Program-made: the position numbers and the translations under genes
Part shown: positions 27,500 through 63,652 of the stretch, piece after piece
How positions within the stretch are numbered: position 1 is the stretch's first letter
Layout: each line of letters opens with the position of its first letter
The notes under the pieces: generated by a model
Database searches by the model: none
Told to the model about the DNA's origin: nothing
Seen by the model: the letters and a program-made list of their open reading frames with translations, nothing else
Source of the DNA: Adhaeribacter radiodurans
GTDB taxonomy: Bacteria > Bacteroidota > Bacteroidia > Cytophagales > Hymenobacteraceae
Assembly (NCBI RefSeq): GCF_014075995.1
Contig: NZ_CP055153.1
Location: 62,001-126,000 of the forward strand
Direction of reading: 5' to 3'
Length of the DNA: 64,000 nucleotides

Positions 27500-29878
27500 T
27501 TACTCTTCTTTCAGGCAATGTACCGGGTTAATTTTAGCAGCTCGGGCGGCTTGCAGGCCCACCGTCAGCCAAGCCACTACCAAGGCTAATAAACCAGCTA
27601 CGCCAAAGTACCAGGGGTTTAATTCAATCTGGTAAGCAAAACTATTCAGCCAGTGTTTTACAAGTAAGTAACTTAGCGGTAAGGCCAGACAAATAGCGAT
27701 AATAACCAGTTTAGAAAACTCACTGGATAACAGATACACGATACTAAACTCACTAGCCCCTAAAACTTTGCGTACACCAATTTCTTTACGCCGGCGTTCG
27801 GCGGTAAAAGCCGCTAAACCAAATAAACCCAGACAGGAAATTAAAATAGCCAAACCGGCAAAGTACCGCGATAGAGCCGCTACCCGTTGTTCGGCTACGT
27901 ACTGGGCCTGGTAATCGGCATCGAGAAATTGGTAATCGAAAACAAAGCCGGGGTTAAATTCTTTGTAAAATTGCTGCAAGCGGGCCAATGTTTCTTTCTC
28001 CTGACCCGCAGCTACTTTAGCCAGAACAACGGTGGCTAACTCGGGTTCTAAAGTAAACAGCAAAGGTTCTACTTTTTCGTGCAACGATTTATAATGAAAA
28101 TCTTTTACGACGCCAATAATTTCAAATTCCATTCCGTTCGGACCTTTTACTATTTTGCCAACGGGTTCCGGTAAACTCAAAGCCTTCACGAAAGCTTCAT
28201 TTACTACTCTCTTTTTTGTATCCGCGCCAAAATCCCGCGAAAAAGTGCGGCCAGCCACTACCGGAATACCCAACGTTTCTATCAGGCCGTAATTTACCCG
28301 GATGTTATGAACAGGAATTTGTTTGCCGTCTAAAGTAATCGGGGTATTTTCGGCAGCAGCCCCAAACCCGCCAATAAATTTGTCAATCTTGCCGGAGGCG
28401 TTTACCACGCCCGGTATTTTCTTAATTTCCGATAGAAAAGTTTTTACGTTAGCGGTTACTTTTCCTTCTATCTCGAACGTAATAATCTGATCTTTGTCGT
28501 AGCCCAGGTTTTTATTTTGTACATACTGAATTTGCCGGTACACCACCAGCACCGATACAATAAAAATAATAGATAAGGCAAACTGAAACACTACCAAGCC
28601 TTTACGGGCCCATACCTCGTTGCCCGAACGGTTGAGTTTTCCTTTAAGAATAGCCACCGGATTAAAACCCGACAGATACAAGGCCGGGTAACTGCCCGCG
28701 ATAATTCCGGTGATGAACGTAATACCAAGCACCGATAAAATTAGATTACCATCGAAATGCAACGCCAACTGTTTGCCGGTAATCTGGTTAAACTGCGGCA
28801 GAAAAAGCACCACCAGCACAATAGCCAGCACCAGGGACAAACTGGTGAGCAGCAAAGCTTCGCCTAAATACTGAGAAATTAAAATTTTACGGCTGGCGCC
28901 CAGCGTTTTCTGGATACCTACTTCTTTTAAACGGCGCGAAGCTCTGGCCGTAGCTAAATTCATAAAATTAATGCAGGCAATTACCAGAATAAACACCGCA
29001 ATTAACGAAAACAGCTTTACATACTCCAGGCGCGTAGGAACGGGTACGCCATTTTCGTATTTACCATATAAATAGTGGCGGGAATAAGGCTCCAGAAATA
29101 AGGTGCGGTGCTGCGCTTTGCTGCTTTTATTTTTTAAAAAATTGGCAATTTTCTGGTTAAACAATTCCAGGTTAGTGCCTTTTTTTAAAACGACGTAAGT
29201 GTAAAAAGGCTCCGGCATGTCCCAGTTTACGCCCATGTTCATTACATCTTTCTCAAAAGCCTCAAAGTTTAAAATAAAGTCAAATTCTTCGGATGAATTA
29301 GCCGGAATGCCTTTAAAAATGCCCGAAATAAAAACCGTTTTCTTCACGCCCATGGTTTCCCATTCCACCGGTTTTCCCAGCACATTTTTAGTAGTACCGA
29401 ATAGCCTTTGCGCCATAGCTTCCGAAATAACCAAAGCATTTTTATCAATTAAAACCTGGTTTTTATCGCCTTGAGTAAGCGGAAAAGAAAACATTTTAAA
29501 ATAATCTTTCCCCACGAATTTGCCGGTAGCCCGAATGTTATTACCCTTATAATTTAAAGTAAACTTTGGAAAAAAAGCCGGGGGAGTAACCGTAGCGGCG
29601 TATTCTACTTCCGGCATTTCGGCCGCTAAGGCGGTGGCTAATTGGTGCGGCGTTTCGGGTTTAGTAGTTATGCCGTTGGCATCACGCCAGTTTTCCATTA
29701 CCCGGAAAAGCTGTTTGTCCTGCTCGTGAAATTTATCAAAATGCCACTCATCGTACACCCACAAATAAATAGCCAGCGCACAAGCCAACCCCGAAGACAA
29801 CCCAATTAAATTAATTAAGAAAGTACCTTTAAACCGGAGGAAATGGCGGTAAATAAGAAGGAAGGTATGCCGGATCAT
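27500..29878 (-). CDS. MacB/FtsX-type ABC transporter permease (array 1, gene 6)
   Basis: This is a 792-residue permease. TM1 is in INLIGLSSGLACALAIYLWV (about 21-43). A MacB-type periplasmic domain follows. Then come an FtsX domain (about 280-400) with INFMNLATARASRRLKEVGIQKTLGAS, a further helix pair (VVFQFALSIIFIVSVLVVYR), a second periplasmic domain and the C-terminal FtsX domain (RRRKEIGVRKVLGASEFSIV). The tail KINPVHCLKEE departs from the ANPV..LRSE ending of its neighbours. It is the last gene of the array, 150 bp beyond the next, and is the most diverged at its C-terminus. Substrate and ATPase partner are unknown. Confidence 0.9.
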   Translation of the reverse strand: MIRHTFLLIYRHFLRFKGTFLINLIGLSSGLACALAIYLWVYDEWHFDKFHEQDKQLFRVMENWRDANGITTKPETPHQLATALAAEMPEVEYAATVTPPAFFPKFTLNYKGNNIRATGKFVGKDYFKMFSFPLTQGDKNQVLIDKNALVISEAMAQRLFGTTKNVLGKPVEWETMGVKKTVFISGIFKGIPANSSEEFDFILNFEAFEKDVMNMGVNWDMPEPFYTYVVLKKGTNLELFNQKIANFLKNKSSKAQHRTLFLEPYSRHYLYGKYENGVPVPTRLEYVKLFSLIAVFILVIACINFMNLATARASRRLKEVGIQKTLGASRKILISQYLGEALLLTSLSLVLAIVLVVLFLPQFNQITGKQLALHFDGNLILSVLGITFITGIIAGSYPALYLSGFNPVAILKGKLNRSGNEVWARKGLVVFQFALSIIFIVSVLVVYRQIQYVQNKNLGYDKDQIITFEIEGKVTANVKTFLSEIKKIPGVVNASGKIDKFIGGFGAAAENTPITLDGKQIPVHNIRVNYGLIETLGIPVVAGRTFSRDFGADTKKRVVNEAFVKALSLPEPVGKIVKGPNGMEFEIIGVVKDFHYKSLHEKVEPLLFTLEPELATVVLAKVAAGQEKETLARLQQFYKEFNPGFVFDYQFLDADYQAQYVAEQRVAALSRYFAGLAILISCLGLFGLAAFTAERRRKEIGVRKVLGASEFSIVYLLSSEFSKLVIIAICLALPLSYLLVKHWLNSFAYQIELNPWYFGVAGLLALVVAWLTVGLQAARAAKINPVHCLKEE

Positions 29879-30028
29879 ACGCGTAGGGTTTACAGTTGAT
29901 GAGAATAGTATGGACAGAAGTAATCTAAATTAAAGGAGCAACAACACGCCGATTTTCCATAAAGAATAAAAAGAAAAACTTAGAATTTTCCTGATAATAC
30001 TACTTCATCTATTTGTTCTTCAGTCAGC

Positions 30029-32434
30029 TTACTCGCTCCGTAATGCATCTACTGGGTTAGCCACGGCTGCTTTAATGGCTTGAAAGCTTATCGTGATTAA
30101 GGCAATAGCTAAGGAGCCAACTCCGGCTACCGCAAATACCCACCAGCCCATATTAATCCGATAGGCAAAATTCTGTAACCAGGCATGCATGCAGTACCAG
30201 GCAACCGGCGAAGCCAGGAAAATGGCCACCAGTACTAATTTTACAAAGTCTTTCGATAAAAGAAAAGCAATTTGATTAATACTGGCTCCTAATACTTTCC
30301 GGATACCTATTTCTTTCCGGCGGCGTTCGGCGGCGTAAGCGGCTAAACCAAACAAGCCCAAACAAGAAACAAAAACGGTAATAGCGGTAAAAATCCCGAG
30401 AAGGGATTTCAGGTTATCTTCGGCTTTATACATGGTGGCAAAGCTTTGGTCCAGAAAAGTATATTCCAGTGGATAATCCGGTGCGAATTGGTCCCAGACT
30501 TCTTTTACCTGGTTAACGGTTGCGCCGATATCCGTTGATTTGAGTTTTACGGCTACCTTCCAGTAAGCTTGCGGATAAATATGCAAAACGGCTGGCTCTA
30601 CTTTATCATACAAACTTTTGTAATGAAAGTCTTTTACCACTCCAATAATTTGTCCTTTTTTAATCAGGTCGGGTTTTCGCCAGGTAGGCCATAGCAATGT
30701 ATGGCCCAAGGCTTGTTCGGGAGTGGTAAAGCCTAATTCTTTAGCTGCGGTTTCGTTAATAATGTAAGCGGCGGAAGTATCCGTTTTATACTCCCTGGAA
30801 AAATCCCGGCCAGCCAATAACTGCAAACCTAAAGTTTTAATATAATCATAATCTACCATTACCTGCGTAGCTTTTAACGATTTTTGCTCCCCCTGCACAG
30901 GTACTGTTATAATGCCATCACCAAACATATCACCCGGAAAACCATAACCTACCGATGCAGCCGCTACTCCCGGTACTTGCAATAACTCATTTTTAAAGGT
31001 TTCGTAGTTGTTGGTCAGGTTATCGCCCCGCATCGGGAAAAACATGATTTCTTCTTTATTAAAACCTAGGTCTTTCTGGTGGAGGTAATTTATTTGGGTG
31101 ATGACCACCAAGGCACTAATAATTAGTAAAACCGATAAAGTAAATTGTACTACTACCAACCCGTGCCGCAGCCACGGAATCTTACCCGGCCCAACATCTG
31201 CCAAAGCAACTCCTTTTAAAACTTTTAACGGCTGAAAACCTGATAAAACCAAGGCCGGGTAAAAGCCCGCTAAAAGCCCTACCACCAATGTTAAACCCAA
31301 CCAAAAAAGCAGTGTAAACGGATTACTGACGGGGTGAAACGAGATTTGTTTAGCCGTAAAATTATTTAGCCAGGGAAGGGCCAGGTAAGTAAAAGCAAGG
31401 GAAATAGCTACGCTAATAAAGGTAAGCAGCAAAGTTTCACCAATAAATTGCGCAATTAGTTGTGAACGGCTAGCTCCAATGGTTTTACGCACGCCTACCT
31501 CTTTTGCCCGCTGCAGCGATTTAGCCGTAGCCAGATTAATAAAATTAAAGCAGGCAATTAGTAAAATAAAAACGGCAATCAGGCTTAAAGCACGCACGTA
31601 CGTTATATTGCCCCTTACGGCTATATCATATTTAAATGCGGCGGAATATAAATGAATTTGAGGCAGAGGTTGTAAAAGAGGCAGATATGTGGTACGCTTA
31701 TCTTTAATGAAGGCGCGGGTATAATCCTGAAATTTGCGTTCTAAGATCGAGCTATTCACTTCCCTTTTAAGTTTTACATAGTTATGGAAGGAATACCAAT
31801 CCCAGCTTTTCAACTGTTCGTCGGATAAGCCCGTTGCTGCTAAAGGTAGTATATATGTAACTGGTAAATGAAATTTTGGATTGTTCTGAAACACTCCCGT
31901 TACCCGGAATAAATCTTTGTCTAGTCGAATTTCCTTGCCGATTGCATTTTCAGAACCAAAGTATTTCTGTGCCATAGACTGGGAAATAACAATGGCATTA
32001 GGGGTAACCAAAGCCTTATCAGCCGAACCGTATTTAAAAGAAAGTGGAAAGAAATTGAAAAAAGTAGGCTCCGCGAATATTCCCCCTTCTTCGTACAGTT
32101 CTTTACTATCCGTTTGAAAGAGAACTTTAGAAGGAATATTTAATATACGAAGGGTTTGTTCTACTTCCGGAAAATTCTGCTGCAAGGCAGTTGTAAACAT
32201 AGGTGGCGTGGTAGCAATATTGCTCACACCCTCGTTATTGGTTATTTTATAATAAAGGCGGTATACTCGTTCCCCTTCCGGAATAAAGTTGTCAAATTGC
32301 TTTTCGTCACGCACAAATAAACCAATCAGTAAACACGCCGTCAGGCCCAGCGTTAATCCGGCAATATTAATAAACGAAAATCCTTTGTTTTTCAAGAGAT
32401 GCCGCAGCGCTACTTTTAAATAGTTGTAAAACAT
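30029..32434 (-). CDS. MacB/FtsX-type ABC transporter permease (array 1, gene 5)
   Basis: This 801-residue protein starts MFYNYLKVALRHLLKNKGFS. It has the duplicated layout TM1, periplasmic domain, FtsX domain (INLATAKSLQRAKEVGVRKT), helix VVVQFTLSVLLIISALVVIT, periplasmic domain and FtsX domain (RRRKEIGIRKVLGASINQIA). It ends ANPVDALRSE. The gap to the upstream permease is 46 bp, consistent with co-transcription. Its first periplasmic domain carries a long insert (LQPLPQIHLYSAAFKYDIAV is the conserved exit). It shares the RRRKEIG form of the C-terminal motif with gene 6, so the two may be nearest relatives in the array. Confidence 0.9.
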   Translation of the reverse strand: MFYNYLKVALRHLLKNKGFSFINIAGLTLGLTACLLIGLFVRDEKQFDNFIPEGERVYRLYYKITNNEGVSNIATTPPMFTTALQQNFPEVEQTLRILNIPSKVLFQTDSKELYEEGGIFAEPTFFNFFPLSFKYGSADKALVTPNAIVISQSMAQKYFGSENAIGKEIRLDKDLFRVTGVFQNNPKFHLPVTYILPLAATGLSDEQLKSWDWYSFHNYVKLKREVNSSILERKFQDYTRAFIKDKRTTYLPLLQPLPQIHLYSAAFKYDIAVRGNITYVRALSLIAVFILLIACFNFINLATAKSLQRAKEVGVRKTIGASRSQLIAQFIGETLLLTFISVAISLAFTYLALPWLNNFTAKQISFHPVSNPFTLLFWLGLTLVVGLLAGFYPALVLSGFQPLKVLKGVALADVGPGKIPWLRHGLVVVQFTLSVLLIISALVVITQINYLHQKDLGFNKEEIMFFPMRGDNLTNNYETFKNELLQVPGVAAASVGYGFPGDMFGDGIITVPVQGEQKSLKATQVMVDYDYIKTLGLQLLAGRDFSREYKTDTSAAYIINETAAKELGFTTPEQALGHTLLWPTWRKPDLIKKGQIIGVVKDFHYKSLYDKVEPAVLHIYPQAYWKVAVKLKSTDIGATVNQVKEVWDQFAPDYPLEYTFLDQSFATMYKAEDNLKSLLGIFTAITVFVSCLGLFGLAAYAAERRRKEIGIRKVLGASINQIAFLLSKDFVKLVLVAIFLASPVAWYCMHAWLQNFAYRINMGWWVFAVAGVGSLAIALITISFQAIKAAVANPVDALRSE

Positions 32435-32480
32435 AATGGTAGTTGCTTTTAGATGAGGGTCTCAATAAAAATTTTATTTA

Positions 32481-34952
32481 TTACTCATTTCGCAAGGCTT
32501 CTACTGGGTTAGCTATTGCCGCTTTTATCGCCTGAAAACTAACCGTAAGCAACGCCAATCCCAACACCAGTAAAGTGGGCACCACAAACAGCCAGGCGCT
32601 TATCGGAATGCGGAAAGAATAGTTTTGCAGCCAGGTTTGCATGCCCCAATACGCCAATGGCCAGGCCAGCACATTCGCCACTAACACTAGTTTTAAAAAA
32701 TCACGGGATAGCAGGGATACAATGTTGGCCACCGAAGCGCCCAGTACTTTGCGGACACCAATTTCTTTGGTGCGCTGCGTAATAGTAAACAGGCACAAAC
32801 CAAATAAACCTAAACAAGCCACAAAAATGGCTAACCCCGTAAATAAACCAAAAATGTATCCGAATTGCTGGTCGGTTTGGTATTGTTGGTTAAAAAACTC
32901 ATCCAGAAAGAAATGCTCAAACGGACTATCTGGGAATAAACTCCGGTAAGTGTTTTCAATTTGCGCTATAGTATGGCTTAAATCAGAAGAATTTACTTTT
33001 AAGGCGTAATGTGTAATAGAGCTCGCATCTTCCGAAATTAAAAAAATAAGCGGGGTGTACGCTTCTTTCAGAGAACGCTGGTGAAAATCGCGTAAAACTC
33101 CAACTACTTCGTTTTTAAAGTTTTTACCGCTTCCATTCCGCATAAAAAGTGTCTGCCCGATTGCTTTTTCCGGGCTGGCAAATCCACAGGCCCGTACCGC
33201 CGCTTCGTTCAGCATAATGGGTGCTACTTCCCGGGCAGTCATTTGTTTGGCTTTTTCCGACGAAATTTTATCTCCGGCAATCACGGTTAAGTTAAACTGG
33301 TCGATAAATTCTGGCCCAACGGCCATAGTGGGGCGGTTTACTGCTGCACTGTTGGGGGCATTGGCATTACTAAAATAACGGGGTGCCCAATCAATAGCTA
33401 TGCCTGGTACGTTAGAGGTAAGCGTAACGCCACTTATGCCGGGGTAGCGACTTATTTCTGTTTTAAAAATGCTGCTTTTTTGGTAAAAAGCTAGTTCTTG
33501 TTCCAGCGTTTCCCGCCGGGCTTGCGGCGCAGCAATTATTAAGGTTTGGGTAATATCAATACCTAAATCTTTGCTGCGCATGTACTGTAATTGCCGGTAA
33601 ACCGTAAAGGTGCCCGTCATTAAACTAACAGAAGCCACAAACTGAAAAACAACTAATGATTGCCGGAGTGTTATTCCCTGCTTTAACTGACCGAGTTTGC
33701 CTTTAAGGACTTGCACTGGCTGGTAAGCCGAAAGAACCAGCGCCGGATAAAGTCCGGAAAGCAAAGCGCCAACTGTTAAAATTCCTAAAAATGCTCCTCC
33801 AAATAAGTATGGATGTTCTAGTGAAAAGGATGAAGGAATACCTACTACTTGGCTAAACCAAGGCCAACCTACTTGAACCAGCGCCAAAGCAAATGCGGCA
33901 CTCAACAAATTAAGTAAAAACGATTCCAGAAAAAACTGGCGGATTAAGTGGCTCCGCTGCGAACCTAAAACTTTCCGGATTCCTACTTCTTTTGCTCTTT
34001 CGGTAGCCTGAGCGGTTGCCAGATTAATATAATTTACATAAGCAATAAGCAAGATAAATCCCGCAATAACAGTTAAGAACCAAATTGTTTTGCCATTGCC
34101 GCTTCCAGGCACTTCGTCGGCTAGGTTAGAATATAAGTGAATACTGGTTAAAGGCTGTAAAGAAAGAATTTGTTTGTTTCCCTGATTTCCGGTTTGGTTA
34201 CCTGGGTATTTCTGCATAAACCGATGCAACTGCGTTTCCAACGCATTCACGTTTGTTTTGGGAGCTATTAAAACGTAAGTGTACCCCGCCCAGGTATGCG
34301 GCCCGCCTTCCTGCCCGGTAACGTGGCGTGAAACCAGAAATTTAAATTTTAAATGCGAATTAGCCGGCACGTCGCGGCATATACCCCGTACGGTAACTTT
34401 AAAATGATGCCCTTGGTTATGGTTATCGAGCGTAAGCGTTTTGCCCAATGGGTTTTGCTCGCCAAAGTATTTTTTAGCGGTTTGTTCCGTAATAATTACC
34501 GTATTGGGCTCATCCAGAGCAGCTGCTGAACCTTTAATAAGTGGAAAAGAAAACAAGCGCAAAAAAGCCGCATCCACAAAAAGTAAATTTGATTCGTTGA
34601 AAGCTTGTTGTGGACCATTTGTTCCTACGGTAGATACTACCCCACCAATCCAAGGGGTGGCCCGCGTAACTTCTTTTATTTCGGGAAAGCTTGCTTTTAA
34701 GGCGGTCCCAAGTTCGGGCTCTGTTTTGGCGCTCTTTTCGGTTAGTCCTTCCGCCGGGTTTTTCTCCAGTAGTAAGCGGTAAATCTGATTGCTGTTTACA
34801 TGAAAGCGGTCATAACTCCACTCAAAGCTGGTATACTGCAAAATGAGTAAACAAGCTGCCATGCCCAAGGCCAAACCAAAAAGATTAATCCCCGCTACAA
34901 ACTTATGACGCCACAGCGTACGAAAGGCTATTTTAAGAGAATGGTAGAACAT
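32481..34952 (-). CDS. MacB/FtsX-type ABC transporter permease (array 1, gene 4)
   Basis: At 823 residues this is the longest paralogue. It starts MFYHSLKIAFRTLWRHKFVA. The middle FtsX domain contains INLATAQATERAKEVGIRKV and the C-terminal one TQRTKEIGVRKVLGASVANI. It ends ANPVEALRNE. The extra length is in the periplasmic domains, for example the segment around PRYFSNANAPNSAAVNRPTM, which has no counterpart in the neighbours. The 27-bp gap to gene 3 and the 46-bp gap to gene 5 argue for one transcript. No ATP-binding protein is encoded nearby. Confidence 0.9.
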   Translation of the reverse strand: MFYHSLKIAFRTLWRHKFVAGINLFGLALGMAACLLILQYTSFEWSYDRFHVNSNQIYRLLLEKNPAEGLTEKSAKTEPELGTALKASFPEIKEVTRATPWIGGVVSTVGTNGPQQAFNESNLLFVDAAFLRLFSFPLIKGSAAALDEPNTVIITEQTAKKYFGEQNPLGKTLTLDNHNQGHHFKVTVRGICRDVPANSHLKFKFLVSRHVTGQEGGPHTWAGYTYVLIAPKTNVNALETQLHRFMQKYPGNQTGNQGNKQILSLQPLTSIHLYSNLADEVPGSGNGKTIWFLTVIAGFILLIAYVNYINLATAQATERAKEVGIRKVLGSQRSHLIRQFFLESFLLNLLSAAFALALVQVGWPWFSQVVGIPSSFSLEHPYLFGGAFLGILTVGALLSGLYPALVLSAYQPVQVLKGKLGQLKQGITLRQSLVVFQFVASVSLMTGTFTVYRQLQYMRSKDLGIDITQTLIIAAPQARRETLEQELAFYQKSSIFKTEISRYPGISGVTLTSNVPGIAIDWAPRYFSNANAPNSAAVNRPTMAVGPEFIDQFNLTVIAGDKISSEKAKQMTAREVAPIMLNEAAVRACGFASPEKAIGQTLFMRNGSGKNFKNEVVGVLRDFHQRSLKEAYTPLIFLISEDASSITHYALKVNSSDLSHTIAQIENTYRSLFPDSPFEHFFLDEFFNQQYQTDQQFGYIFGLFTGLAIFVACLGLFGLCLFTITQRTKEIGVRKVLGASVANIVSLLSRDFLKLVLVANVLAWPLAYWGMQTWLQNYSFRIPISAWLFVVPTLLVLGLALLTVSFQAIKAAIANPVEALRNE

Positions 34953-34979
34953 GACTTACTAATTTAAATAAGAGATTGC

Positions 34980-37337
34980 TTACTCGCTCCGCAAGGCTTT
35001 TACCGGATTTGCCACTGCGGCTTTAACTGCCTGCAAGCTAACCGTACACAGCGCGATAAGTAAAGTAACGGCTCCGACCAAAGCAAATATTCCCCAGTCA
35101 AGCTCGGTGCGATAAGCAAAATCCTGTAACCAGCGGTGCATCGCCCATCCGGCCAGCGGCCAGGCAATTACATTAGATAATAACACCAGTTTCAGGAAAT
35201 CTTTGGAAAGTAGCGTAACAATTAGGCGCACCGAGGCCCCCAAAACTTTGCGAATACCAATTTCTTTGGTGCGCTGCTGCACCGTAAATGTGACCAATCC
35301 AAATAAGCCTAAGCACGAAATAAAAATGGCGATAAAAGCAAACCCAGTGGCTAGCTTACTCACCAGCAAATCGCTATGGTACAAGCGTTCAAAGTTTTGG
35401 TCCAGAAAATGGTATTCAAACGGCGCTGCCGATTCAAATTTCGGATGCAGTTTTTGCAAGCTGGCAATTGCTTGCTGGGCTTGTCCGGATTTAGTTCGCA
35501 CATACACCATTCCAGCTTCTTTCGGGCGAAGCGTTATCATAATCGGCATAATAGGATTGTGCAAACTGCTAACATGAAAATTTTGCACCAAGCCAATAAT
35601 TTTACCTTCCTTGCCTTGAAAGCGCACTTTCTGCCCAATAGGTTGCGATAGGCCCATTGCTTTTAAAGCTTCTTCATTAATAATATAATTTAAACTATCC
35701 GTAGAGAAATCCACGGAAAAATTCCGTCCGTCTTTCAGCTTTGCTCCCATGGTGGGCAAAAAATTAGCATCGGCATTAATAATCTGGAAAGAAATTATTT
35801 CGTTGGGGTTCTTTCCTTTCCAATCCAGGCTCTGTGAAGTAGTAACTCTCCCTAACAATTCCTGGCTGGATTGAGCCACTTTACCTATGCCTGGTTGAAC
35901 CAGCAATTCTGTTTTATAAGCTTCAAAATGATTTAAAATACCGCCTGAACCCGGAAAGTAAATCAGGTTTTCCTGGTTTAAGCCTAAATCCTTATTTTTC
36001 ATGTATTGAATTTGCCGGTGCACGACTACCGTAGAAATAATAAGGCTCGTAGAAAGTACAAATTGAAAGATAACTAATCCCTGACGCAGATAAGCCGTGC
36101 CGGAACCAGCCTTAATAATTCCTTTTAATACCTGCACCGAACGAAACGCCGATAAAAAAAAAGCCGGATAACTGCCAGCAAGCAGACTGGTAAATAAGGT
36201 TATACTTAGTACTGCCAACAAAAAAGTTGGATGAAGAAAAGGAAGGAAAATGCTTTTTCCGGTAAGCTGATTAAAAAATGGCAAGGTGTACGCAACTATT
36301 GCTACTGCAATAACCATCGAAAGCAGGGACAGCAAAAAAGATTCAGTCAGGAATTGACTAACAAGGGAAGTCCGGCTAGCGCCGATTACTTTGCGTACAC
36401 CCACCTCCTTTGCCCGGTGCGCCGACCGGGCGGTGGCCAAGTTCATGAAATTAATGCAGGCAATTAACAGAATAAAGCCAGCTACTACCGAGAATAAACG
36501 CACATACACAATCCGCCCACCTGCTGGCTTGCCATTTTCAAACTTATCATATAAGTAAAATTCTTTTAATGGCTGAAGCATTAAAGTAGAGATAGAACCT
36601 TTCGCTTGCGTTTTTACAAAATTTTCTATTTTGCTACTCACGGCATCGGCCTGGGCATTCTCTTTTAGCAACACAAACGTCTGGATAGAACTGGCGCCCC
36701 AATCGCGGAGCCAATGATTATGCTGGAATAGCACTTCAAAAGGAAGCACGTAATCAAATTGCAAAGAAGAATTTTTAGGTACATCCTGGAATACGCCCGA
36801 TACCATAAACTTGTCTTCGTCGCCTATCTGAATTACTTTGCCTAAAGCCTGCGGCACATTCCCGAAGTGTTTTTGGGCGAACGATTGCGAAATAACAATA
36901 GCAGAAATACCCTGCAAAACGGTTTTACTATCCCCGGCTATTAAAGGAAAGGAAAACAACTGAAAAAAATTAGGATCAGCAAAGTGGCCTTGTTCTTTAA
37001 AAGCTTTGTTGCCTATTTTAAGTATTCGTTCCTGGGCGAAAGAAACCCGCGTGGCATCCACTATTTCAGGGAATTTTTCTTTTAGTGCGGGAGCCAATAA
37101 GCCCTGCGTATCCGGGCCAGTTCTCACTTCGCCGTTCGTAAAATTCAGATGGTGCAGCACTACATAGAGCCTATCAATCCGTTTATGAAAGCCATCGAAT
37201 TGCAGCTCATCTACTACCCACAACAAAATAAGCAAACTGGTGGCCAGACCCAGCGAAAGCCCGGCAATATTCAGGAAAGAGAAGCCTTTTTGCCGTATTA
37301 AAGTACGAACAGCGATTTTTAAATAATTATACCACAT
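34980..37337 (-). CDS. MacB/FtsX-type ABC transporter permease (array 1, gene 3)
   Basis: The 785-residue product is the shortest of the set. It starts MWYNYLKIAVRTLIRQKGFS. The middle FtsX signature is MNLATARSAHRAKEVGVRKV and the C-terminal one QQRTKEIGIRKVLGASVRLI. It ends ANPVKALRSE. The periplasmic domains have their own sequence (for example PFEVLFQHNHWLRDWGASSI), while the membrane parts are closely shared with its neighbours. Gaps of 26-27 bp on both sides place it in a tight operon with genes 2 and 4. Confidence 0.9.
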   Translation of the reverse strand: MWYNYLKIAVRTLIRQKGFSFLNIAGLSLGLATSLLILLWVVDELQFDGFHKRIDRLYVVLHHLNFTNGEVRTGPDTQGLLAPALKEKFPEIVDATRVSFAQERILKIGNKAFKEQGHFADPNFFQLFSFPLIAGDSKTVLQGISAIVISQSFAQKHFGNVPQALGKVIQIGDEDKFMVSGVFQDVPKNSSLQFDYVLPFEVLFQHNHWLRDWGASSIQTFVLLKENAQADAVSSKIENFVKTQAKGSISTLMLQPLKEFYLYDKFENGKPAGGRIVYVRLFSVVAGFILLIACINFMNLATARSAHRAKEVGVRKVIGASRTSLVSQFLTESFLLSLLSMVIAVAIVAYTLPFFNQLTGKSIFLPFLHPTFLLAVLSITLFTSLLAGSYPAFFLSAFRSVQVLKGIIKAGSGTAYLRQGLVIFQFVLSTSLIISTVVVHRQIQYMKNKDLGLNQENLIYFPGSGGILNHFEAYKTELLVQPGIGKVAQSSQELLGRVTTSQSLDWKGKNPNEIISFQIINADANFLPTMGAKLKDGRNFSVDFSTDSLNYIINEEALKAMGLSQPIGQKVRFQGKEGKIIGLVQNFHVSSLHNPIMPIMITLRPKEAGMVYVRTKSGQAQQAIASLQKLHPKFESAAPFEYHFLDQNFERLYHSDLLVSKLATGFAFIAIFISCLGLFGLVTFTVQQRTKEIGIRKVLGASVRLIVTLLSKDFLKLVLLSNVIAWPLAGWAMHRWLQDFAYRTELDWGIFALVGAVTLLIALCTVSLQAVKAAVANPVKALRSE

Positions 37338-42320: not shown

Positions 42321-42434
42321 ATTTTCTAATTAAATTTTTTATGATGGCTGATCGGGCAGTTAAGTAATCAGAAACCTTCCGGCTTAGTTTAATAAAGCAA
42401 GCACATTGATGCCTTTGCTTAACCCTACTTTTAA

Positions 42435-42550
42435 TAATAAAAATGCCACATTTATATCTTATTGATTTGTAGGTGATTATAGCTTTATTTTCGTGATTTA
42501 GCTAGAAAAGCGTTCGCTTTTGATACAACTTTTTGTTCAGTTTTGTAACA
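42435..42550 (-). promoter_or_regulatory. sigma-54-like promoter with two upstream tandem motifs (array 1)
   Basis: On the minus strand TGGCATTTTTATTAT (42448 to about 42434) resembles a -24/-12 promoter: GG is followed by exactly ten bases and then the -12 position, which here reads AT instead of GC. It is about 115 bp before the start codon. Starting 63 bp further upstream are CGTTCGCTTTTGATACA (42511-42527) and TGTTCAGTTTTGTAACA (42534-42550), 23 bp apart. The same layout precedes the first gene of array 2 (63759-63878). Confidence 0.5.
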
Positions 42551-43351: not shown

Positions 43352-43384
43352 GAAAAATTATCTTTAGAATACCTCCTGTTGTCC

Positions 43385-54915: not shown

Positions 54916-54967
54916 TGTTTATGAAAAACCATAAAATATCTATAAAAAAGCAGTAATCAGGTTATAG

Positions 54968-55005: not shown

Positions 55006-55019
55006 TACGGCTGTTTGCC

Positions 55020-55751: not shown

Positions 55752-55780
55752 AAGAGTTAAATTTAATTTTAAGAATTTTC

Positions 55781-55932
55781 TTATTCGGAGCGTAAGGATT
55801 TTACCGGGTTGCCCACAACCCAATAAAAAGGGCTACTGCCATACCCGTACCTAAACCCAGACTGTTCTGAGCACTATAACCTTTGTTCCTAAGAATATGC
55901 CGCCAGGCCGTTTTAAAATAGTTTTTAAACAA
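55781..55932 (-). pseudogene. internally deleted remnant of a tenth FtsX-type permease
   Basis: On the minus strand, 55932-55806 encodes LFKNYFKTAWRHILRNKGYS, then GLGTGMAVALFIGLWA, the TM1 region of a permease. The frame then breaks, and the next 30 bases, in another frame, read GNPVKSLRSE followed by TAA: the invariant C-terminus of these permeases. About 2.2 kb between them is missing. The start codon is TTG where the family has ATG. The KTAWRHILRN N-terminus is unlike the nine intact paralogues here, so this was a distinct member. Confidence 0.85.
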
Positions 55933-56117
55933 AGGAGTTGTGGTTTATAATGGTCAGAACTTTGATTAATTTGATGTAAGGCTTACCTGGTTACTTTGGC
56001 GGAACCATAGCTTAGCTGAGTTCAGGATAAAGGGGTAACTTTGGCATTTTAAATTGGTTACTGGCTTTTTACTAAATTTTGTTAATCCTTATAATCAAAT
56101 AAACAATGGGATAAGTA

Positions 56118-58499
56118 TTACTCGCTACGCAGCGATTTTACCGGATTGGCAATTGCGGCTTTCACTGTTTGGAAGCTGACTGTAAGCAAAGCAATAAATA
56201 AAGCTAAGGCACCTGTGAGCGCAAATATCCACCAGCTAATGGGAGTCCGGTATTCAAAATCCTGTAACCATTGTTGCATTGCCCACCAGGACAAGGGCCA
56301 GGCTAGAACATTAGCCAGTAAAACTAATTTCAGGAAATCTTTGGAGAGTAGTGAAACAATGTTGGCGAGGGAAGCGCCTAATACCTTGCGGATACCAATT
56401 TCTTTGGTGCGCTGCTCCGTAGTAAAAGAAGCCAAACCAAATAAACCTAAACAGGCAATAAAAATAGCTAAGCCCGAAAATACGCCTACTATTTTGCCAA
56501 AGCGCATTTCTGACTGATACAGGTTGTTTAGGTTTTCATCGACAAAGCTAAATTCAAACGGGTGCTGATTATCGTGGGTGTTCCATTTCTGGCTTAAAGC
56601 TGCTAAAGTAGCCGGTACTTGCTGGGGTTGCAACCGTAGAACCAGGTAGTAAACTGGTTCGCGGGCAATTATAAAAATAGCCGGTTCTACCTTCGAGCGT
56701 AGCGTTTTAAAATTAAAATCTTTAACCACTCCTACCACGCTACGTAGATTACCGCTGTTATTAAAGTCTATTTTTTTACCAATAGCTTCAGTTGCGGATG
56801 TCCAGCCGAATGCTTTAATAGCTGCTTCGTTTAATAAAACTGACTTAGTAGTATCCGTAGCAAAATTGCGGCTTAAATCCCGGCCAGCCGCTAATTCCAT
56901 TCCCATGGTTTTCAAATAATCAAAATCGGATTGAAACACGTGCCCGATAATGGATTGCTTGCTTTCTCCGGTGGGTTTAATGTCGGTTTGCCACCAACCC
57001 CGGTTACCCGGTATAGCAGTAGTTGCAGTGCCGCTAATTACTCCCGGTACATTTAAGAAACTATTTTTAATGTTATTGGCCTTAGCCTGAGTTACTCGGC
57101 CGCTTAGGGGTATGGAAAGTAGTTGTTCTTTATTAAAACCTAAACGCTTTTGCTGGATGTATTGCATCTGGCTGTACACTACCACCGTACCCACAATTAA
57201 AGCAATGGAAATAGTAAACTGTACTACCACTAAACCTTTACGCAAAACAGCTCCTTTTAAACTGGTAATTAGCGGGCCTTTTAGCACCTGCACCGGCTGA
57301 TACCCCGACAAGAATAAGGCCGGGTACAAACCTGCTGCTAATCCTACCAATAGCATTAAAGCAAACAAGCTGGCTACTAAACCACCATTAGTAAAGTAAT
57401 TTACCTGTATTAATTTACCCGCAAGCGCATTAAATGCCGGTAACGATAACTGTACCAACACCAGAGCTAATAGCAGACTTAGAAAAGCCAGTAAAATGGA
57501 CTCGCTTAAAAACTGACTGATTAATTGTTTACGGGAAGCACCAATTACTTTACGTACACCTACTTCTTTCGAGCGGGTTTGCGAACGGGCCGTAGCCAAA
57601 TTCATAAAGTTGATGCAGGCAAGTAAAATAATAAATACCGCCAGCGCCGAGAATAAATACACATTTTTAATATCGGCGGGTGCGTCTAAATGGCTTCCGT
57701 ACTCCGAAGCAAAGTGAACATCCCGTAAAGGTTGCACGTGCAAAGCCAGCGGGGTACCTTCCGGTTCCGGGAAGTATTTTTTTGCGAAACCGGGTAGTTT
57801 GGCTTCAAAATTTTTAACGCTAAAATTAACTTCTACTAAAATGTACGAATAATAAGCAAACCCCCACCAATTGGTGCGGTTATTCGATACCATATGGAAG
57901 GGTAACAGAAAAGTAGGCCGGATGTGCGAATTACCCGGAACTGGAGCCAGAACACCCGTAACTTTTACTTGCCGGATGGTGTCCATTGCCAGTTCCAGGA
58001 CTTGCCCCAGTGGGTTGGTGTTGCCGAAATACTTGATGGCTAGCTCCTGGCTTAATACAATAGAATTAGGCTCGGCTAAAGCAGTTTTAGGGTTACCGGC
58101 CGTTAGCGGAAAAGTAAAAACAGCGAACAAAGTAGAATCAGCGAATAAACCACCTTCTTCGTAACTGCGGATTTCGCCGTGCCGGATTAAACTGCGGGAA
58201 GGATTTTTTAAACGAACTACTTTTTTTACCTCCGGAAAATCGGCTTGTAACTGCGGGGCAATGGGCGGGGAAGTAACCGGAGCTTTTTCTAAAGTACCAT
58301 TATTTTCTATTTCAACGGTAAGCCGGTAAATATTTTCAGCTTGCTGGTGGTGCGTATCGAAGCTAAGTTCATCCTGCACATATAGCAGGATAAGGGTACA
58401 ACAAGCCATGCCTACCGCTAAGCCAATAATATTAATAAAGGTATAGGCTTTGTGCCGTAGCAAATTTCGGACGGAAATTTTAAGGTAATTTCTAAGCAT
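56118..58499 (-). CDS. MacB/FtsX-type ABC transporter permease (array 2, gene 3)
   Basis: The start is set at the ATG at 58499 (MLRNYLKISVRNLLRHKAYT), matching its relatives; another ATG lies five codons upstream. The product has 793 residues with the two-FtsX layout. The middle signature is MNLATARSQTRSKEVGVRKV and the C-terminal one EQRTKEIGIRKVLGASLANI. It ends ANPVKSLRSE. It is the closest relative of the leading gene of array 1 (39915-42320), though 14 kb away. A strong hairpin 50-85 bp upstream (58549-58584) suggests a separate transcript from the preceding permease. Confidence 0.9.
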   Translation of the reverse strand: MLRNYLKISVRNLLRHKAYTFINIIGLAVGMACCTLILLYVQDELSFDTHHQQAENIYRLTVEIENNGTLEKAPVTSPPIAPQLQADFPEVKKVVRLKNPSRSLIRHGEIRSYEEGGLFADSTLFAVFTFPLTAGNPKTALAEPNSIVLSQELAIKYFGNTNPLGQVLELAMDTIRQVKVTGVLAPVPGNSHIRPTFLLPFHMVSNNRTNWWGFAYYSYILVEVNFSVKNFEAKLPGFAKKYFPEPEGTPLALHVQPLRDVHFASEYGSHLDAPADIKNVYLFSALAVFIILLACINFMNLATARSQTRSKEVGVRKVIGASRKQLISQFLSESILLAFLSLLLALVLVQLSLPAFNALAGKLIQVNYFTNGGLVASLFALMLLVGLAAGLYPALFLSGYQPVQVLKGPLITSLKGAVLRKGLVVVQFTISIALIVGTVVVYSQMQYIQQKRLGFNKEQLLSIPLSGRVTQAKANNIKNSFLNVPGVISGTATTAIPGNRGWWQTDIKPTGESKQSIIGHVFQSDFDYLKTMGMELAAGRDLSRNFATDTTKSVLLNEAAIKAFGWTSATEAIGKKIDFNNSGNLRSVVGVVKDFNFKTLRSKVEPAIFIIAREPVYYLVLRLQPQQVPATLAALSQKWNTHDNQHPFEFSFVDENLNNLYQSEMRFGKIVGVFSGLAIFIACLGLFGLASFTTEQRTKEIGIRKVLGASLANIVSLLSKDFLKLVLLANVLAWPLSWWAMQQWLQDFEYRTPISWWIFALTGALALFIALLTVSFQTVKAAIANPVKSLRSE

Positions 58500-58548
58500 A
58501 TTTAAGGGTTGCATGAACCAATATATAAATTAACAACTTAAAACAGGG

Positions 58549-58584
58549 CCAGGCAGGATACCTGAATGCGGGTATCCTGCCTGG
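58549..58584 (-). terminator. intrinsic terminator
   Basis: Perfect 14-bp arms CCAGGCAGGATACC / GGTATCCTGCCTGG enclose an eight-base loop, 34 bp beyond the stop of the 58618-61044 permease. TTTTAT follows on the plus side; on the minus side the tail is GCCCTGTTTTAAG. Confidence 0.75.
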
Positions 58585-58617
58585 TTTTATAGTTGACGCA
58601 GCTTTTTATTCTACAGG

Positions 58618-61044
58618 CTACTCGCTGCGCAAGCTTTTCACCGGATTTGCAATGGCTGCTTTAATAGCCTGGTAACTAATAGTAAGCAAAGCGATCAACA
58701 AAGCTCCCACACCGGCCAAACCAAATACCCACCAACCAATAGTAGTGCGGTACTCAAAGTCTTGCAGCCATTGGTGCATGGCCCACCAAGCTAACGGCCA
58801 AGCCAGCAGATTGGCGATGAGTACTAACTTTAAAAAATCTTTAGAGAGCAGGGATACAATGTTAGGCAGGGAGGCCCCCAGTACTTTGCGGATGCCAATT
58901 TCTTTGGTGCGTTGTTCGGCGGTGAAGGTAGCCAAACCAAATAAACCTAAACACGCTACAAAAATGGTAAGTCCCGAAAAAATACTTAGAATTCGACCCA
59001 CTTTTTGCTCCGCCTGGTACGTTTCGGCAAAACGCTCGTCCATGAAAGTATACGCAAAGGGCGCATTGGCGGTAAAGCTGCCCCATTGTTGTTTCATGGA
59101 AGTTAGTAAGCCCGCAATATCTTTAGTTTTGGCTTTTACTATAATGGAGCCGGAATTATTACCCAGAATCATAAGCAGCGGGGTAATGCGTTGGTGCAAC
59201 GACTCGAAATGAAAATCTTTTACAACCCCAATAACCCGGTACTCTGCCTTATCGCCCGCGTTATTAATAAACCGCGAAACTTTGCGACCCAAAATGTTAT
59301 TCCCCCAGCCAAAAGCTTTCGCGGCGGCCTCGTTAATAACCATAGCAGTAGAGTCAGAGGCAAAATCCTTGGAAAAATTACGACCGGCTACTATCTGCAT
59401 GCCCAGCGTAGGAATGTAGTTATGGTCCACAAAATATTGCCGGGTACTTACGCTTTGCGCCGCGTTATTTTCGGGTAATACTACCGAGTTCTCGGAACTG
59501 GTAGGCCCAACGGGCACAAATCCCGAAACGCTCGCATTAACAACTCGGGGGTCTTGCAAAAGCTGCTGCCGGAAAACTTCTTCTTGTTTGCCTAACACGT
59601 AGGTATCGTGCAGCACAAAAGTTTGATCTTTATCAAACCCTATTTTCTTGTTCTGAATGTAGTTGAGTTGCTGGTACACCACGGTAGTGCCAATCATTAA
59701 AGCCACCGAAATAAAAAACTGAAACACTACCAACCCGCTGCGTAGGCTCAAACTTTCTTTACCCGCCGTAAGAGTACCTTTTAACACTTTAACCGGCTGA
59801 AACGAAGACAAGAAAAACGCCGGATAGCTACCCGCTAATACGCCCACAATTAAGCCAAATAGTAACAAGGCTGGTATTAACCACAAGTTAGCGATAAACT
59901 GTAAAGCAAGTTCTTTGCCGGCCAAATCGTTAAACAGCGGTAGCGCCAGATAAACCAACACAATACCTAGTACCAGTGCAATAATGGTAAGCAAAATAGA
60001 TTCGAGCAAAAACTGCTGCACCAGTTCTTTTTTTACCGAGCCGAGCACCTTTCTTATTCCTACCTCGCGGGCCCGCTTAGAAGCACCGGCCGTTGATAAA
60101 TTCATAAAATTTATGCTGGCAATAAGCAGCATAAAGAGCGCAATTGCCCCGAAAATATACACATATCGCATGTCACCGCCCGGTTCCAGGTCATTATTTA
60201 AATTGGAGCGCAAGTGAATATCGGTAAGTGGTTGCAGATACAAACCTACATCGTCGCCTTTTTCCCGGAATTGCTTTAAGGTCATGCCCATGGCCTTCTG
60301 CACTTCTGGGCCCATGTATTTTTCAATTACCTGCGGCAATTTGGCTTGCAGTTGCTTGTAATCGTAGCCGGGGCGCAACACCAGATAAGTGTTAAAGTTA
60401 TTACTCATCCAAGTGGTTTGACGGGCTTCTTCTAAACCGGCCATAGAGGCAAAAAAGTTAAAATGAAAGTGCGAATTGGTAGGCACTTTGTCGATGACGC
60501 CGGTTACTTTGTAGGTAGTTTTTTCGTTTTTCAATTGTAGCATTTTGCCTACGGCGTTGTGGTAGGTACCAAAGTATTTCTGCGCCATGGCCTTGGTAAT
60601 AACAATAGTATTAGGCTCGCGCAAAGCCGTTTTGGCATCGCCCTGGATGAAAGGCAGCGTAAATACCTGAAAAAAGTTGGCATCCACGTAAGCAAACTTG
60701 TCTTCCTTAAAGGTTTTATCCTGGTAGGTAATAAAAGGAGCGCTGTTTACCCGCACCCGGGTAGCTTCTTCTACTTCGGGGTAATCGCGCACGAGCGTTT
60801 GCCCGGTAGGTGCCGAAGCGGTAGGTGTTTCCAGGGTTTCGCCGTTTAACGAAACCTTAAACACCAGCCGTACTATGCGGTCGGCTTTTTGGTTAAAGCG
60901 ATCGTAGCTTAGTTCGTCTACTACAAACAGCATAATTACCAGACAGGTGGCAATGCCAATCGCCAAACCAAAAATATTAATGGCCGAAAACGCCTTGTTG
61001 CGCCACAAATTGCGCAGTGCGATTTTAAAGTAATTTCGAAACAT
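58618..61044 (-). CDS. MacB/FtsX-type ABC transporter permease (array 2, gene 2)
   Basis: The 808-residue permease starts MFRNYFKIALRNLWRNKAFS. The middle signature is MNLSTAGASKRAREVGIRKV and the C-terminal one EQRTKEIGIRKVLGASLPNI. It ends ANPVKSLRSE. It is closely similar to the next gene upstream (61232-63652): both have AGASKRA(R/K)EVGIRKVLGS, a shared VKKELVQQFL segment and the same periplasmic KYMGP block. They are a tandem duplication within this array. The gap between them (187 bp) holds a perfect 20-bp-arm hairpin. The terminator at 58549 lies beyond its stop. Confidence 0.9.
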   Translation of the reverse strand: MFRNYFKIALRNLWRNKAFSAINIFGLAIGIATCLVIMLFVVDELSYDRFNQKADRIVRLVFKVSLNGETLETPTASAPTGQTLVRDYPEVEEATRVRVNSAPFITYQDKTFKEDKFAYVDANFFQVFTLPFIQGDAKTALREPNTIVITKAMAQKYFGTYHNAVGKMLQLKNEKTTYKVTGVIDKVPTNSHFHFNFFASMAGLEEARQTTWMSNNFNTYLVLRPGYDYKQLQAKLPQVIEKYMGPEVQKAMGMTLKQFREKGDDVGLYLQPLTDIHLRSNLNNDLEPGGDMRYVYIFGAIALFMLLIASINFMNLSTAGASKRAREVGIRKVLGSVKKELVQQFLLESILLTIIALVLGIVLVYLALPLFNDLAGKELALQFIANLWLIPALLLFGLIVGVLAGSYPAFFLSSFQPVKVLKGTLTAGKESLSLRSGLVVFQFFISVALMIGTTVVYQQLNYIQNKKIGFDKDQTFVLHDTYVLGKQEEVFRQQLLQDPRVVNASVSGFVPVGPTSSENSVVLPENNAAQSVSTRQYFVDHNYIPTLGMQIVAGRNFSKDFASDSTAMVINEAAAKAFGWGNNILGRKVSRFINNAGDKAEYRVIGVVKDFHFESLHQRITPLLMILGNNSGSIIVKAKTKDIAGLLTSMKQQWGSFTANAPFAYTFMDERFAETYQAEQKVGRILSIFSGLTIFVACLGLFGLATFTAEQRTKEIGIRKVLGASLPNIVSLLSKDFLKLVLIANLLAWPLAWWAMHQWLQDFEYRTTIGWWVFGLAGVGALLIALLTISYQAIKAAIANPVKSLRSE

Positions 61045-61104
61045 CCCGTTTTATATTTAGCAGTTTTAAATGCCCGAGGGCTATACTTTGAATTAAATAA
61101 CTGT

Positions 61105-61154
61105 CCTTCAGGCGTAAATTATGGCTGCGTAGTTCCATAATTTACGCCTGAAGG
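61105..61154. repeat. perfect 20-bp-arm inverted repeat, hairpin family copy 3
   Basis: CCTTCAGGCGTAAATTATGG and its exact complement flank CTGCGTAGTT. It shares CCTTCAGG and the GCTGCGTAG centre with the copies at 6944 and 17406. It sits between two tandem permease genes. It could act as a terminator or a stabilising hairpin in a shared message. Confidence 0.65.
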
Positions 61155-61231
61155 CAACAAAGTTTATATGTTGAACCTTAAATTATTAGTAATCATTTTC
61201 TGGTTGCTAATTCGTACTCACGCATTAATAG

Positions 61232-63652
61232 CTACTCGTTGCGAAGCGAATTTACTGGGTTGGCTACTGCCGCTTTTATAGCCTGGAAACTAACGGTGAA
61301 CAGCGCAATTACCAGGGCCATTACGCCCGCTAAGGCAAACACCCACCAACCTAAATTTATGCGATAAGCAAAATCTTGCAGCCAGCGATGCATCAGCCAG
61401 CCGGCTAACGGCCAGGCAATGAGGTTAGCTAGTAAAACCAGTTTCAGGAAATCTTTAGAAAGTAAGCCGATAATATTGGTTACCGAAGCCCCCAGCACTT
61501 TGCGAATGCCGATTTCTTTGGTGCGCTGCTCGGCAGTAAAGGTAGCCAGGCCAAATAAACCCAGACAAGCCACAAAAATGGTTAAACCGGCAAAGATGCC
61601 CAGCACCTGCCCGATTTTTTGCTCAGCCTGGTAGGTTTGGTGAAAGCGCTCGTCCAGAAAAGCGTAATTTAAGGGTTCTTCAGCGGTTAATTGGTTCCAG
61701 TTATTTTTAGCGGTGGCCAAAAGGCCGGCAATATCCTGCGTTTTTACTTTTACAATCAGAGTGCCTGAGTTATTTCCCAGTGTCATGGCTAAAGGCGAAA
61801 TAGGCTCGTGCAACGATTTAAAATGAAAATCTTTAACAATACCAATTACCCGGTAAGTTACTTTTTTGCCTTCATTATCGGAATGGGTTACTTTCTGGCC
61901 CAGCGGGTTATTGGTCCAGCCTAAAGCTTTAGCAGCCGTTTCGTTTAAAATTATACCGGTAGAATCGGTAGCAAATTCTTTCGAAAAGTTGCGTCCGGCA
62001 ATTACCTGCATGCCCAAAGTAGGAATGTACCTTTCGTCCACTTCATAGCGCAGCGCTTTCATAAACTGCGCCGGATTATCTTCCGGAGAAACCATAAAAT
62101 TATTATTATAGCTGGGGCCCGCCGGCAAATAACCCGACATACTAACACATTTAACCCGGGAGTCTTGCTGAATTTGCTGCTGAAACACTTCCGCCTTTTT
62201 GCCTAATAAATATAAATCGGGTATTAAAAGTACCTGATCTTTGGTATAGCCTAATTCTTTATTTTGAATGTAGCGCAGTTGCTGGTACACCACGGTGGTG
62301 CCAATCATTAAAGCAATGGAAATAAAAAACTGAAAAACTACCAAACCGCTTCGTAAGCTCAAACTGTTTTTACCGGTGGCAAACCGGCCTTTTAACACCG
62401 CCACTGGCCGGAACGAAGAAAGAAAGAAGGCCGGATAGCTGCCCGCTAAAATACCTACTAGTAAGCCAAACAGTAACAAACCGGGCATTAACCAAGGGCT
62501 TGAAATAAAATTTAAAGTAAGTTGGGTGCCAGCCAGATTATTAAAAATGGGCAAGGAAAAATACACAATGCCAATAGCTATAATTAACGAGATAGCCGTT
62601 AAAAGCACCGACTCGGTTAAAAATTGTTGTACCAGCTCTTTCTTTACCGAACCTAAAACTTTGCGGATACCCACTTCTTTGGCGCGTTTAGAGGCTCCGG
62701 CGGTAGATAAATTCATAAAGTTAATGCCTGCAATTAAGAGCATAAACACGGCAATTGCCCCGAAAATGTACACGTATTGTAAATTGCCACTGGGCTTTAA
62801 CTCACCCATTAAATGCGAGCGCAGGTGAATATCGGTGAGGGGTTGTAAAAACAAACCTAAGTCGTTGCCGGCTTGCCGGAACTGCGCTAAACTCACGCCC
62901 ATGGATTGCAGTATTTGCGGACCCATGTACTTCTCGACTACCTGCGGTAATTTAGCTTCCAGTTGCTTGTAATCGTAACCCTTGGGCAGAACCAGGTAAG
63001 TATAAAACTCCGATACTAACCAGGAGGGAGCTTTCGCATCCGGAAAGCTGGCCATGGAAGCAAAAATATCGAATTGGAAGTGTGCATTGGCGGGTACTTT
63101 CGCCATTACCCCAGTCACTTTTAAAGAAGTATTGTAATCTTTAAAAAACAAGATTTTGCCCATAGGATTGGCTTTGCCAAAGTACTTATGCGCAACTTCT
63201 TCTGAAATAACAATGGTATTGGGTTCTGCCAAAGCGGTTTTAGGATCGCCTTGCACGAAGGGTAACGTAAACACCTCGAAAAAATTAGAATCTACGAACG
63301 CAAACGCATTTTCCCGGAAAGATTTGTTCTGGTAAATTACGCGGGGAGATCCGTAGTTGCGCAAACGGGTGGCTTCCTGCACTTCGGGATAGTCGGCGAG
63401 TAGGGTTTGGGCTACGGGTGGCATTACGTGCGCTTCGGCCATTTTTTCGCCCTGAATCGAACCTTTAAAAATTACCCGTACCATCCGGTCGGCTTTTTGA
63501 TTAAAACGGTCGTAGTTCCATTCGTTGGCCACGAACAAGGTAATTACCAAACAGGTAGCCATACCCAGGGCCAACCCAAAAATATTAATAGCCGAAAAAG
63601 CTTTGCGGCGCAACAAGTTGCGGATTGCTATTTTAAAGAAATTCTGGAACAT
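61232..63652 (-). CDS. MacB/FtsX-type ABC transporter permease (array 2, leading gene)
   Basis: The 806-residue permease starts MFQNFFKIAIRNLLRRKAFS and leads array 2. The middle signature is MNLSTAGASKRAKEVGIRKV and the C-terminal one EQRTKEIGIRKVLGASVTNI. It ends ANPVNSLRNE. The first periplasmic domain includes QILQSMGVSLAQFRQAGNDL, shared with the next gene but absent from array 1. Upstream (63759-63878) is the same sigma-54-like element and paired motif as before array 1. The 348-bp right-hand edge of the window shows no other gene. Confidence 0.9.
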   Translation of the reverse strand: MFQNFFKIAIRNLLRRKAFSAINIFGLALGMATCLVITLFVANEWNYDRFNQKADRMVRVIFKGSIQGEKMAEAHVMPPVAQTLLADYPEVQEATRLRNYGSPRVIYQNKSFRENAFAFVDSNFFEVFTLPFVQGDPKTALAEPNTIVISEEVAHKYFGKANPMGKILFFKDYNTSLKVTGVMAKVPANAHFQFDIFASMASFPDAKAPSWLVSEFYTYLVLPKGYDYKQLEAKLPQVVEKYMGPQILQSMGVSLAQFRQAGNDLGLFLQPLTDIHLRSHLMGELKPSGNLQYVYIFGAIAVFMLLIAGINFMNLSTAGASKRAKEVGIRKVLGSVKKELVQQFLTESVLLTAISLIIAIGIVYFSLPIFNNLAGTQLTLNFISSPWLMPGLLLFGLLVGILAGSYPAFFLSSFRPVAVLKGRFATGKNSLSLRSGLVVFQFFISIALMIGTTVVYQQLRYIQNKELGYTKDQVLLIPDLYLLGKKAEVFQQQIQQDSRVKCVSMSGYLPAGPSYNNNFMVSPEDNPAQFMKALRYEVDERYIPTLGMQVIAGRNFSKEFATDSTGIILNETAAKALGWTNNPLGQKVTHSDNEGKKVTYRVIGIVKDFHFKSLHEPISPLAMTLGNNSGTLIVKVKTQDIAGLLATAKNNWNQLTAEEPLNYAFLDERFHQTYQAEQKIGQVLGIFAGLTIFVACLGLFGLATFTAEQRTKEIGIRKVLGASVTNIIGLLSKDFLKLVLLANLIAWPLAGWLMHRWLQDFAYRINLGWWVFALAGVMALVIALFTVSFQAIKAAVANPVNSLRNE

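Follow-up and report, generated by a model that had tools for sequence, protein, structure and literature searches.

A candidate dispersed MacB/LolCDE-like exporter in Adhaeribacter radiodurans: one ATPase-adaptor-TolC core predicted to serve many permeases under a shared sigma-54-type switch

Transporters of the MacB superfamily usually handle peptides, lipids or lipoproteins, and MacB itself carries a fused ATPase. The ADOP family (NCBIfam TIGR03434), whose members have ~800 aa, a duplicated MacB_PCD-FtsX layout, many paralogues and often no adjacent ATPase, is described as being without linked ATPases. In the darobactin exporter (NF038008 and NF038007) the permease is likewise duplicated, the LolD-type ATPase is separate and each set has one permease. 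We know of no YbbAP, MacAB-TolC or LolCDE case in which one ATPase serves dozens of permeases. Among importers, ATPase sharing is established: MsmK energises several streptococcal sugar importers, three of which are named for S. pneumoniae in that report (PMC4519317). The Aat system secretes lipoproteins with a combination of MacB-like and Lol-like components (PMC7943197). A 2025 survey describes an enrichment of sigma-54 promoters ahead of COG0577 permeases in Bacteroidia and calls this the first evidence for the family (PMC12316311), while a study of Dyadobacter notes that such "orphan" permeases occur there in many copies, without a function (PMC11573002). Our search of the literature, which ran without preprints and most subscription journals, returned no paper linking these permeases to a shared ATPase. 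Permeases of the ADOP type have thus been described before, as has the sharing of an ATPase among importers; what the current analysis adds is a putative export regulon with one core and many permeases.

The window, meaning the whole 64,000-nucleotide stretch of A. radiodurans DNA analysed here, encodes nine intact permeases of 785-823 aa, all on the minus strand and arranged in two arrays with intergenic gaps of 26-187 bp. An earlier note, made from the sequence, had described these nine genes and one remnant, and both the open reading frames and the Pfam matches bear this out. Array 1 (27500-42320) comprises, from its first gene to its sixth, 39915-42320 (801 aa), 37364-39766 (800 aa), 34980-37337 (785 aa), 32481-34952 (823 aa), 30029-32434 (801 aa) and 27500-29878 (792 aa), whereas array 2 (56118-63652) has only 61232-63652 (806 aa), 58618-61044 (808 aa) and 56118-58514 (798 aa). 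The remnant, also on the minus strand, is small (55804-55944) and retains ~41 N-terminal residues. Between the arrays, a peptidase S58 gene (43379-44517, plus strand) lies in two frames (43379-44026 and 44029-44517) and looks like a frameshift.

All nine proteins match Pfam MacB_PCD and FtsX above the cut-offs, with most domains appearing as two stretches. ADOP is the top NCBIfam match for every one of them and its traits, namely internal duplication and a length of ~800 aa, are present, yet the scores of 288.8-350.7 bits fall below the curated cut-off of 622.3. The second match, DarB (NF038008), gives 117.3-171.2 bits against a curated cut-off of 700, such that none of the nine is a member of either family by the curated rules. 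Further differences from the darobactin exporter are the score of the best ATPase in the genome on the corresponding model (298.7 versus 375 bits) and the presence of many permeases rather than one. The window proteins are best read as type VII (MacB/LolCDE-like) ABC permeases of the duplicated kind, with both halves of the membrane unit in every chain. A structural model of 39915-42320, built from 45 sequences (mean pLDDT 87.1, pTM 0.82), agrees with this assignment, as it predicts two halves that together have eight long membrane helices and two periplasmic domains, as well as two short helices that each sit between membrane helices. Over its full length, the closest structure is that of E. 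coli YbbP in the YbbAP complex (9ge7; E 2.4e-19), although the whole-chain match is loose (TM-score 0.46, 13% identity), and its separate halves match MacB and LolC/E.

No ABC_tran, HlyD or outer-membrane efflux protein match was found among the 30 other window ORFs of at least 120 aa that were scanned, a set which leaves aside six entries of the 45-ORF list (five lying antisense to permeases and one to other genes) as well as ORFs shorter than 120 aa or running off the window ends. The flanks, 20 kb before and 19 kb after the window, likewise encode no relative of the ATPase, adaptor or TolC-like protein described below. Hence, the statement in the earlier note that the window holds no ATPase, adaptor or TolC-like gene stands for the ORFs covered, and its description of the permeases as orphans without a partner is accurate locally. 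It does not extend to the genome as a whole, where an adaptor-ATPase operon and a TolC-like gene share the promoter type of the arrays.

A genome-wide MacB_PCD search led to 25 permeases of the window type. Besides the nine in the window, there are two at ~131.9-136.9 kb (locus L002, the flank after the window), eleven at ~6.488-6.519 Mb (L003-L005) and one each at L006, L007 and L008. The last two (L007:7267-10352 and L008:8377-11091) are located outside the arrays, are longer (897 and 904 aa) and have an N-terminal extension, and a PadR gene precedes the former. Among the loci examined, which for L007 and L008 means 18 kb each, the L006 permease is the only one of the 25 adjoining an ATPase gene, which it overlaps. 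Two MacB-like permease genes of another size (415-419 aa; L010:8759-10006 and L012:8086-9345) are unlinked as well and, together with unlinked LolD-like ATPases, raise the possibility that separation of ATPase and permease genes is common in this genome.

The LolD/MacB-class ATPases of this genome were ranked with the DarD model (NF038007), in line with a suggestion of the earlier note, and the top match (298.7 bits) is a protein of 230 aa encoded at C2:6764479-6765171, within a locus at ~6.76 Mb (L016, from C2:6756000 onward); the L006 ATPase (278.8 bits) and a third candidate (255.5 bits) follow. By sequence, the L016 ATPase matches MacB, LolD and YbbA, the best being 5xu1 of S. pneumoniae. 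Just upstream lies the gene of an HlyD-type adaptor of 420 aa and, divergent from this operon, a histidine kinase and an NtrC-type response regulator with Sigma54_activat and Fis-type HTH domains; rpoN is also encoded in the genome. The permease gene behind the ATPase is broken, as about ten N-terminal codons are fused to the C-terminal region with a stop inside, and 147 codons remain open. A TolC-like gene, recognised by its match to Pfam OEP, is found at C2:6485635-6487101 (L003:5636-7102), on the same strand as the eleven-permease array and after it. Comparison with three relatives yielded dN/dS values of 0.022-0.028 for the L016 ATPase and 0.022-0.039 for the adaptor. The ATPase is thus under strong purifying selection although its adjoining permease is broken. 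Since the ATPase and adaptor genes are intact beside a broken permease, service in trans is the simplest reading. Overall, we assign a probability of roughly 70% to a dispersed MacB/LolCDE-like exporter in which the ATPase-adaptor-TolC core would energise many permeases in trans under a shared sigma-54-type switch. The earlier note had offered one ATPase encoded elsewhere as a possible partner of many permeases, and this is now the best-supported option given the operons, promoters and reciprocal best hits, with a second ATPase perhaps taking a share.

The promoters connect these scattered genes. Sites of 17 bp (TGTATCAAAACCGGACA), mostly paired 22-23 bp apart, occur upstream of array 1 and of the adaptor-ATPase operon, and a TGGCATTTTTCTTAC-like (sigma-54-like) element lies at a near-fixed distance from them. 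Across the fetched loci, the most frequent of these distances are 63-64 and 86-87 bp, and a minor set at 53 and 75-76 bp is shorter by about one helical turn. In the window, all on the minus strand, the element (TGGCAT...) of array 1 is at 42433-42448 and its two activator-like sites at 42511-42550 (42511-42527 and 42534-42550), while array 2 has its element at 63759-63774 and its sites at 63838-63876 (63838-63854 and 63860-63876). A composite matrix of sites and element was trained on 27 sites from relatives; applied at a threshold of 14 bits to 428 kb of the A. radiodurans genome (stretches chosen around ABC genes), it gave eight matches of 39.6-55.7 bits. All eight are ahead of genes of the proposed system: window arrays 1 and 2, L002, two places in L004, L005 (a match given by position to the 6.519 Mb permease), the adaptor gene and the TolC-like gene. 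Three shuffled copies of the same 428 kb gave no composite match. As the motif had first been noticed in this very genome, the test with the held-out matrix is not fully independent. Composite matches at other spacings also occur at places distant from system genes, with examples in L005, L006, L008, L010, L013, L019, L052, L055, L079 and L081.

The 17-bp site by itself is a weak marker, being found singly with up to two mismatches at 34 places genome-wide compared with 28 for a reversed control. With at most one mismatch there are nine places, six of which precede system genes; the other three (C2:711086, 4325346 and 4460681) lack a TGGCAT element at the expected spacing, according to a lookup that read loci in contig orientation and is meaningful for plus-strand sites such as these. 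The sigma-54 -24/-12 consensus carries GC at -12. This GC is mostly missing from the elements described here, whereas activator domains, RpoN and a fixed spacing are all present. A plain sigma-54 consensus scan demanding GC at -12 returned nothing useful, and the promoter emerged from direct comparison of upstream sequences. We infer that the L016 regulator binds the shared 17-bp sites. Two further genes are perhaps members of the regulon: a DUF4097 gene in the vicinity of the adaptor-ATPase genes (L016:2380-3423, minus strand), which has a similar upstream site with two mismatches (L016:3605), and a DUF2807 gene (window 55020-55823, minus strand) directly after the permease remnant.

In other genomes, the ATPase and permease genes that are dispersed in A. 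radiodurans are typically encoded together. In all six same-genus genomes inspected (G003, G009, G014, G019, G024 and G029), intact permeases come next to the adaptor-ATPase genes, downstream on the same strand, and in G029 the ATPase leads an array of seven permeases, one of which contains a stop. A kinase-regulator pair accompanies the adaptor in G014, G019 and G029; in G003, G009 and G024 there is none within the fetched stretch. On a broader scale, a permease starts behind the ATPase at 28 of the 30 loci around top ATPase matches drawn from 60 family genomes, and in this respect these permeases depart from the ADOP family as described. The two exceptions are the studied genome and G059, which presents a second natural separation, with its adaptor-ATPase and its sole ADOP match at E<=1e-80 on different contigs (L120 and L121). 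Thus, the ATPase in the same operon that the earlier note had named as evidence against its view is absent from the window arrays and present among their relatives. Two or three permeases behind an adaptor-ATPase are also seen in Mucilaginibacter limnophilus, a Sphingobacteriaceae bacterium and a Balneola MAG, whereas the fetched stretch of Olivibacter sitiensis (L115) contains an adaptor relative with neither ATPase nor permease.

The window permeases themselves are kin to those encoded in such operons. Reciprocal best hits against all nine G029 permeases pair 56118-58514, 58618-61044 and 30029-32434 with the second, third and fifth permeases of the ATPase-led array (65, 71 and 60% identity); both G029 pairs obtained with a smaller set (107 permeases, four of them from G029) persist in this comparison. 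The partner of 34980-37337 is a G029 permease located away from that array. A tree was built from 107 fetched permeases, with 24 labelled by hand as adjoining ATPases (one such operon, in G006 at L063, has no adaptor gene), and in it seven of the nine window permeases group with ATPase-operon permeases. Six do so within their three smallest clades, including 27500-29878 (with G055 and G016) and 61232-63652 (with G016, G019 and G024), and 39915-42320 within a seven-member clade that includes a G029 operon permease. No labelled permease falls within the three smallest clades of 32481-34952 or 37364-39766.

The alternative that survives best, even if we consider it unlikely, is that the permeases depend for energy mainly on another ATPase, either that of L006 or one of two unlinked LolD-like proteins (L017:7703-8371 and L018:7525-8238). 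Several observations are compatible with it: the L006 ATPase scores close to that of L016 on the same model, the coupling helices of the L006 permease resemble those of the arrays, a related site with an 86-bp spacing to the TGGCAT element precedes the L006 regulator gene (L006:11518; also L068:6388), and neither L017 nor L018 has a nearby FtsX-type permease of the array kind. The L016-type and L006 regulators may therefore read similar DNA. On the other hand, the starts of the L006, L017 and L018 ATPase genes are not among the eight composite promoter matches. Furthermore, with the L016 ATPase as query, same-genus ATPases that adjoin relatives of the window permeases score 439-494 bits, compared with 324 for the L006 ATPase. 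It is conceivable that both contribute, in that the L006 ATPase could share the energising load with the L016 core.

A second alternative, raised in the earlier note for sensors, gives the permeases a role in the envelope that needs no ATPase, as sensors or scaffolds. Such a role would fit the finding that a single permease of the 25 adjoins an ATPase gene. However, the most conserved segments of these proteins are 313-324 and 705-718 of the modelled permease (mean entropy 0.58 and 0.34), coupling helices which, from MacB and LolCDE, we take to be the place of ATPase docking. By comparison, entropy is 1.2-1.8 in the membrane helices and reaches 2.35 and 2.34 in the periplasmic domains, the highest among the segments compared, which upholds the earlier description of these domains as diverged and would fit varied ligands. 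The coupling-helix motif is common to the 25 permeases with small changes and differs from that of the YbbP-like protein of the same genome. Equally difficult to reconcile with stand-alone sensing is the promoter type common to the arrays, the adaptor-ATPase genes and the TolC-like gene.

The distribution of the genes among the 60 family genomes also argues against stand-alone sensing. With 40 ATPase candidates scored in each, 51 of them have a match that reaches 268 bits or more, and 47 of these 51 have an ADOP match at E<=1e-80 (at most 23 candidates were scored per genome, so counts of 23 mean at least 23). In the other four (G020, G028, G035 and G039) a permease stands beside the ATPase, with only its N-terminal part inside the locus in all except G028. 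Seven of the nine genomes under 268 bits have no ADOP match at E<=1e-80; also among the nine is G038, in which an ATPase scoring 259.7 bits adjoins a permease of 810 aa. G026 was considered as a case of permeases without an ATPase and rejected, as its split pair (449 and 415 aa) adjoins an ATPase. Consequently, every genome of the 60 with an ADOP match at E<=1e-80 also has a related ATPase gene, a criterion that leaves aside weaker matches (7.8e-46 to 1.1e-52) in six genomes lacking strong ones. Much of this co-occurrence is due to gene adjacency alone. Based upon the conserved coupling helices and the co-occurrence of the two genes, ATPase-independent sensing is set aside as very improbable. 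That the arrays consist largely of duplicates which a recent amplification left behind and which now drift with little function is more improbable still, for despite the two permease remnants (55804-55944 and that of L016), dN/dS against relatives is 0.044-0.146 in eight of the nine window permeases (four of these values being approximate), the frames remain open over ~800 codons and the promoters are conserved.

Returning to a core shared in trans, several steps of its operation can be proposed. Firstly, the histidine kinase and NtrC-type regulator encoded beside the adaptor probably sense an envelope signal, upon which the regulator would turn on the adaptor, ATPase, TolC-like gene and permease arrays jointly via the upstream sites and sigma-54-like promoters. 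Secondly, each permease would contribute its own periplasmic recognition domain, while a shared ATPase dimer would dock at the coupling helices. Lastly, ATP-driven movement would presumably pass a substrate from the periplasm or outer leaflet to the adaptor and TolC, as in MacAB-TolC. We lean somewhat towards the further proposal of a combinatorial exporter, in which one core and more than 20 permeases with diverged periplasmic domains are placed under a single two-component/sigma-54 switch, such that the whole set of specificities is deployed together. If true, the "orphan" permease families of the Bacteroidota, and perhaps of the Acidobacteriota, would be specificity modules, and linking a permease set to an ATPase, adaptor, TolC and regulator would turn a "function unknown" label into a testable export regulon. 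ATPase sharing, established for importers by the MsmK case, would be extended to tripartite export, the likeness being one ATPase for several transporters and the difference being importers there and a predicted exporter with more than 20 permeases here (PMC4519317). Similarly, the anatomy described here would supply a concrete system for the COG0577 sigma-54 signal of the 2025 survey (PMC12316311).
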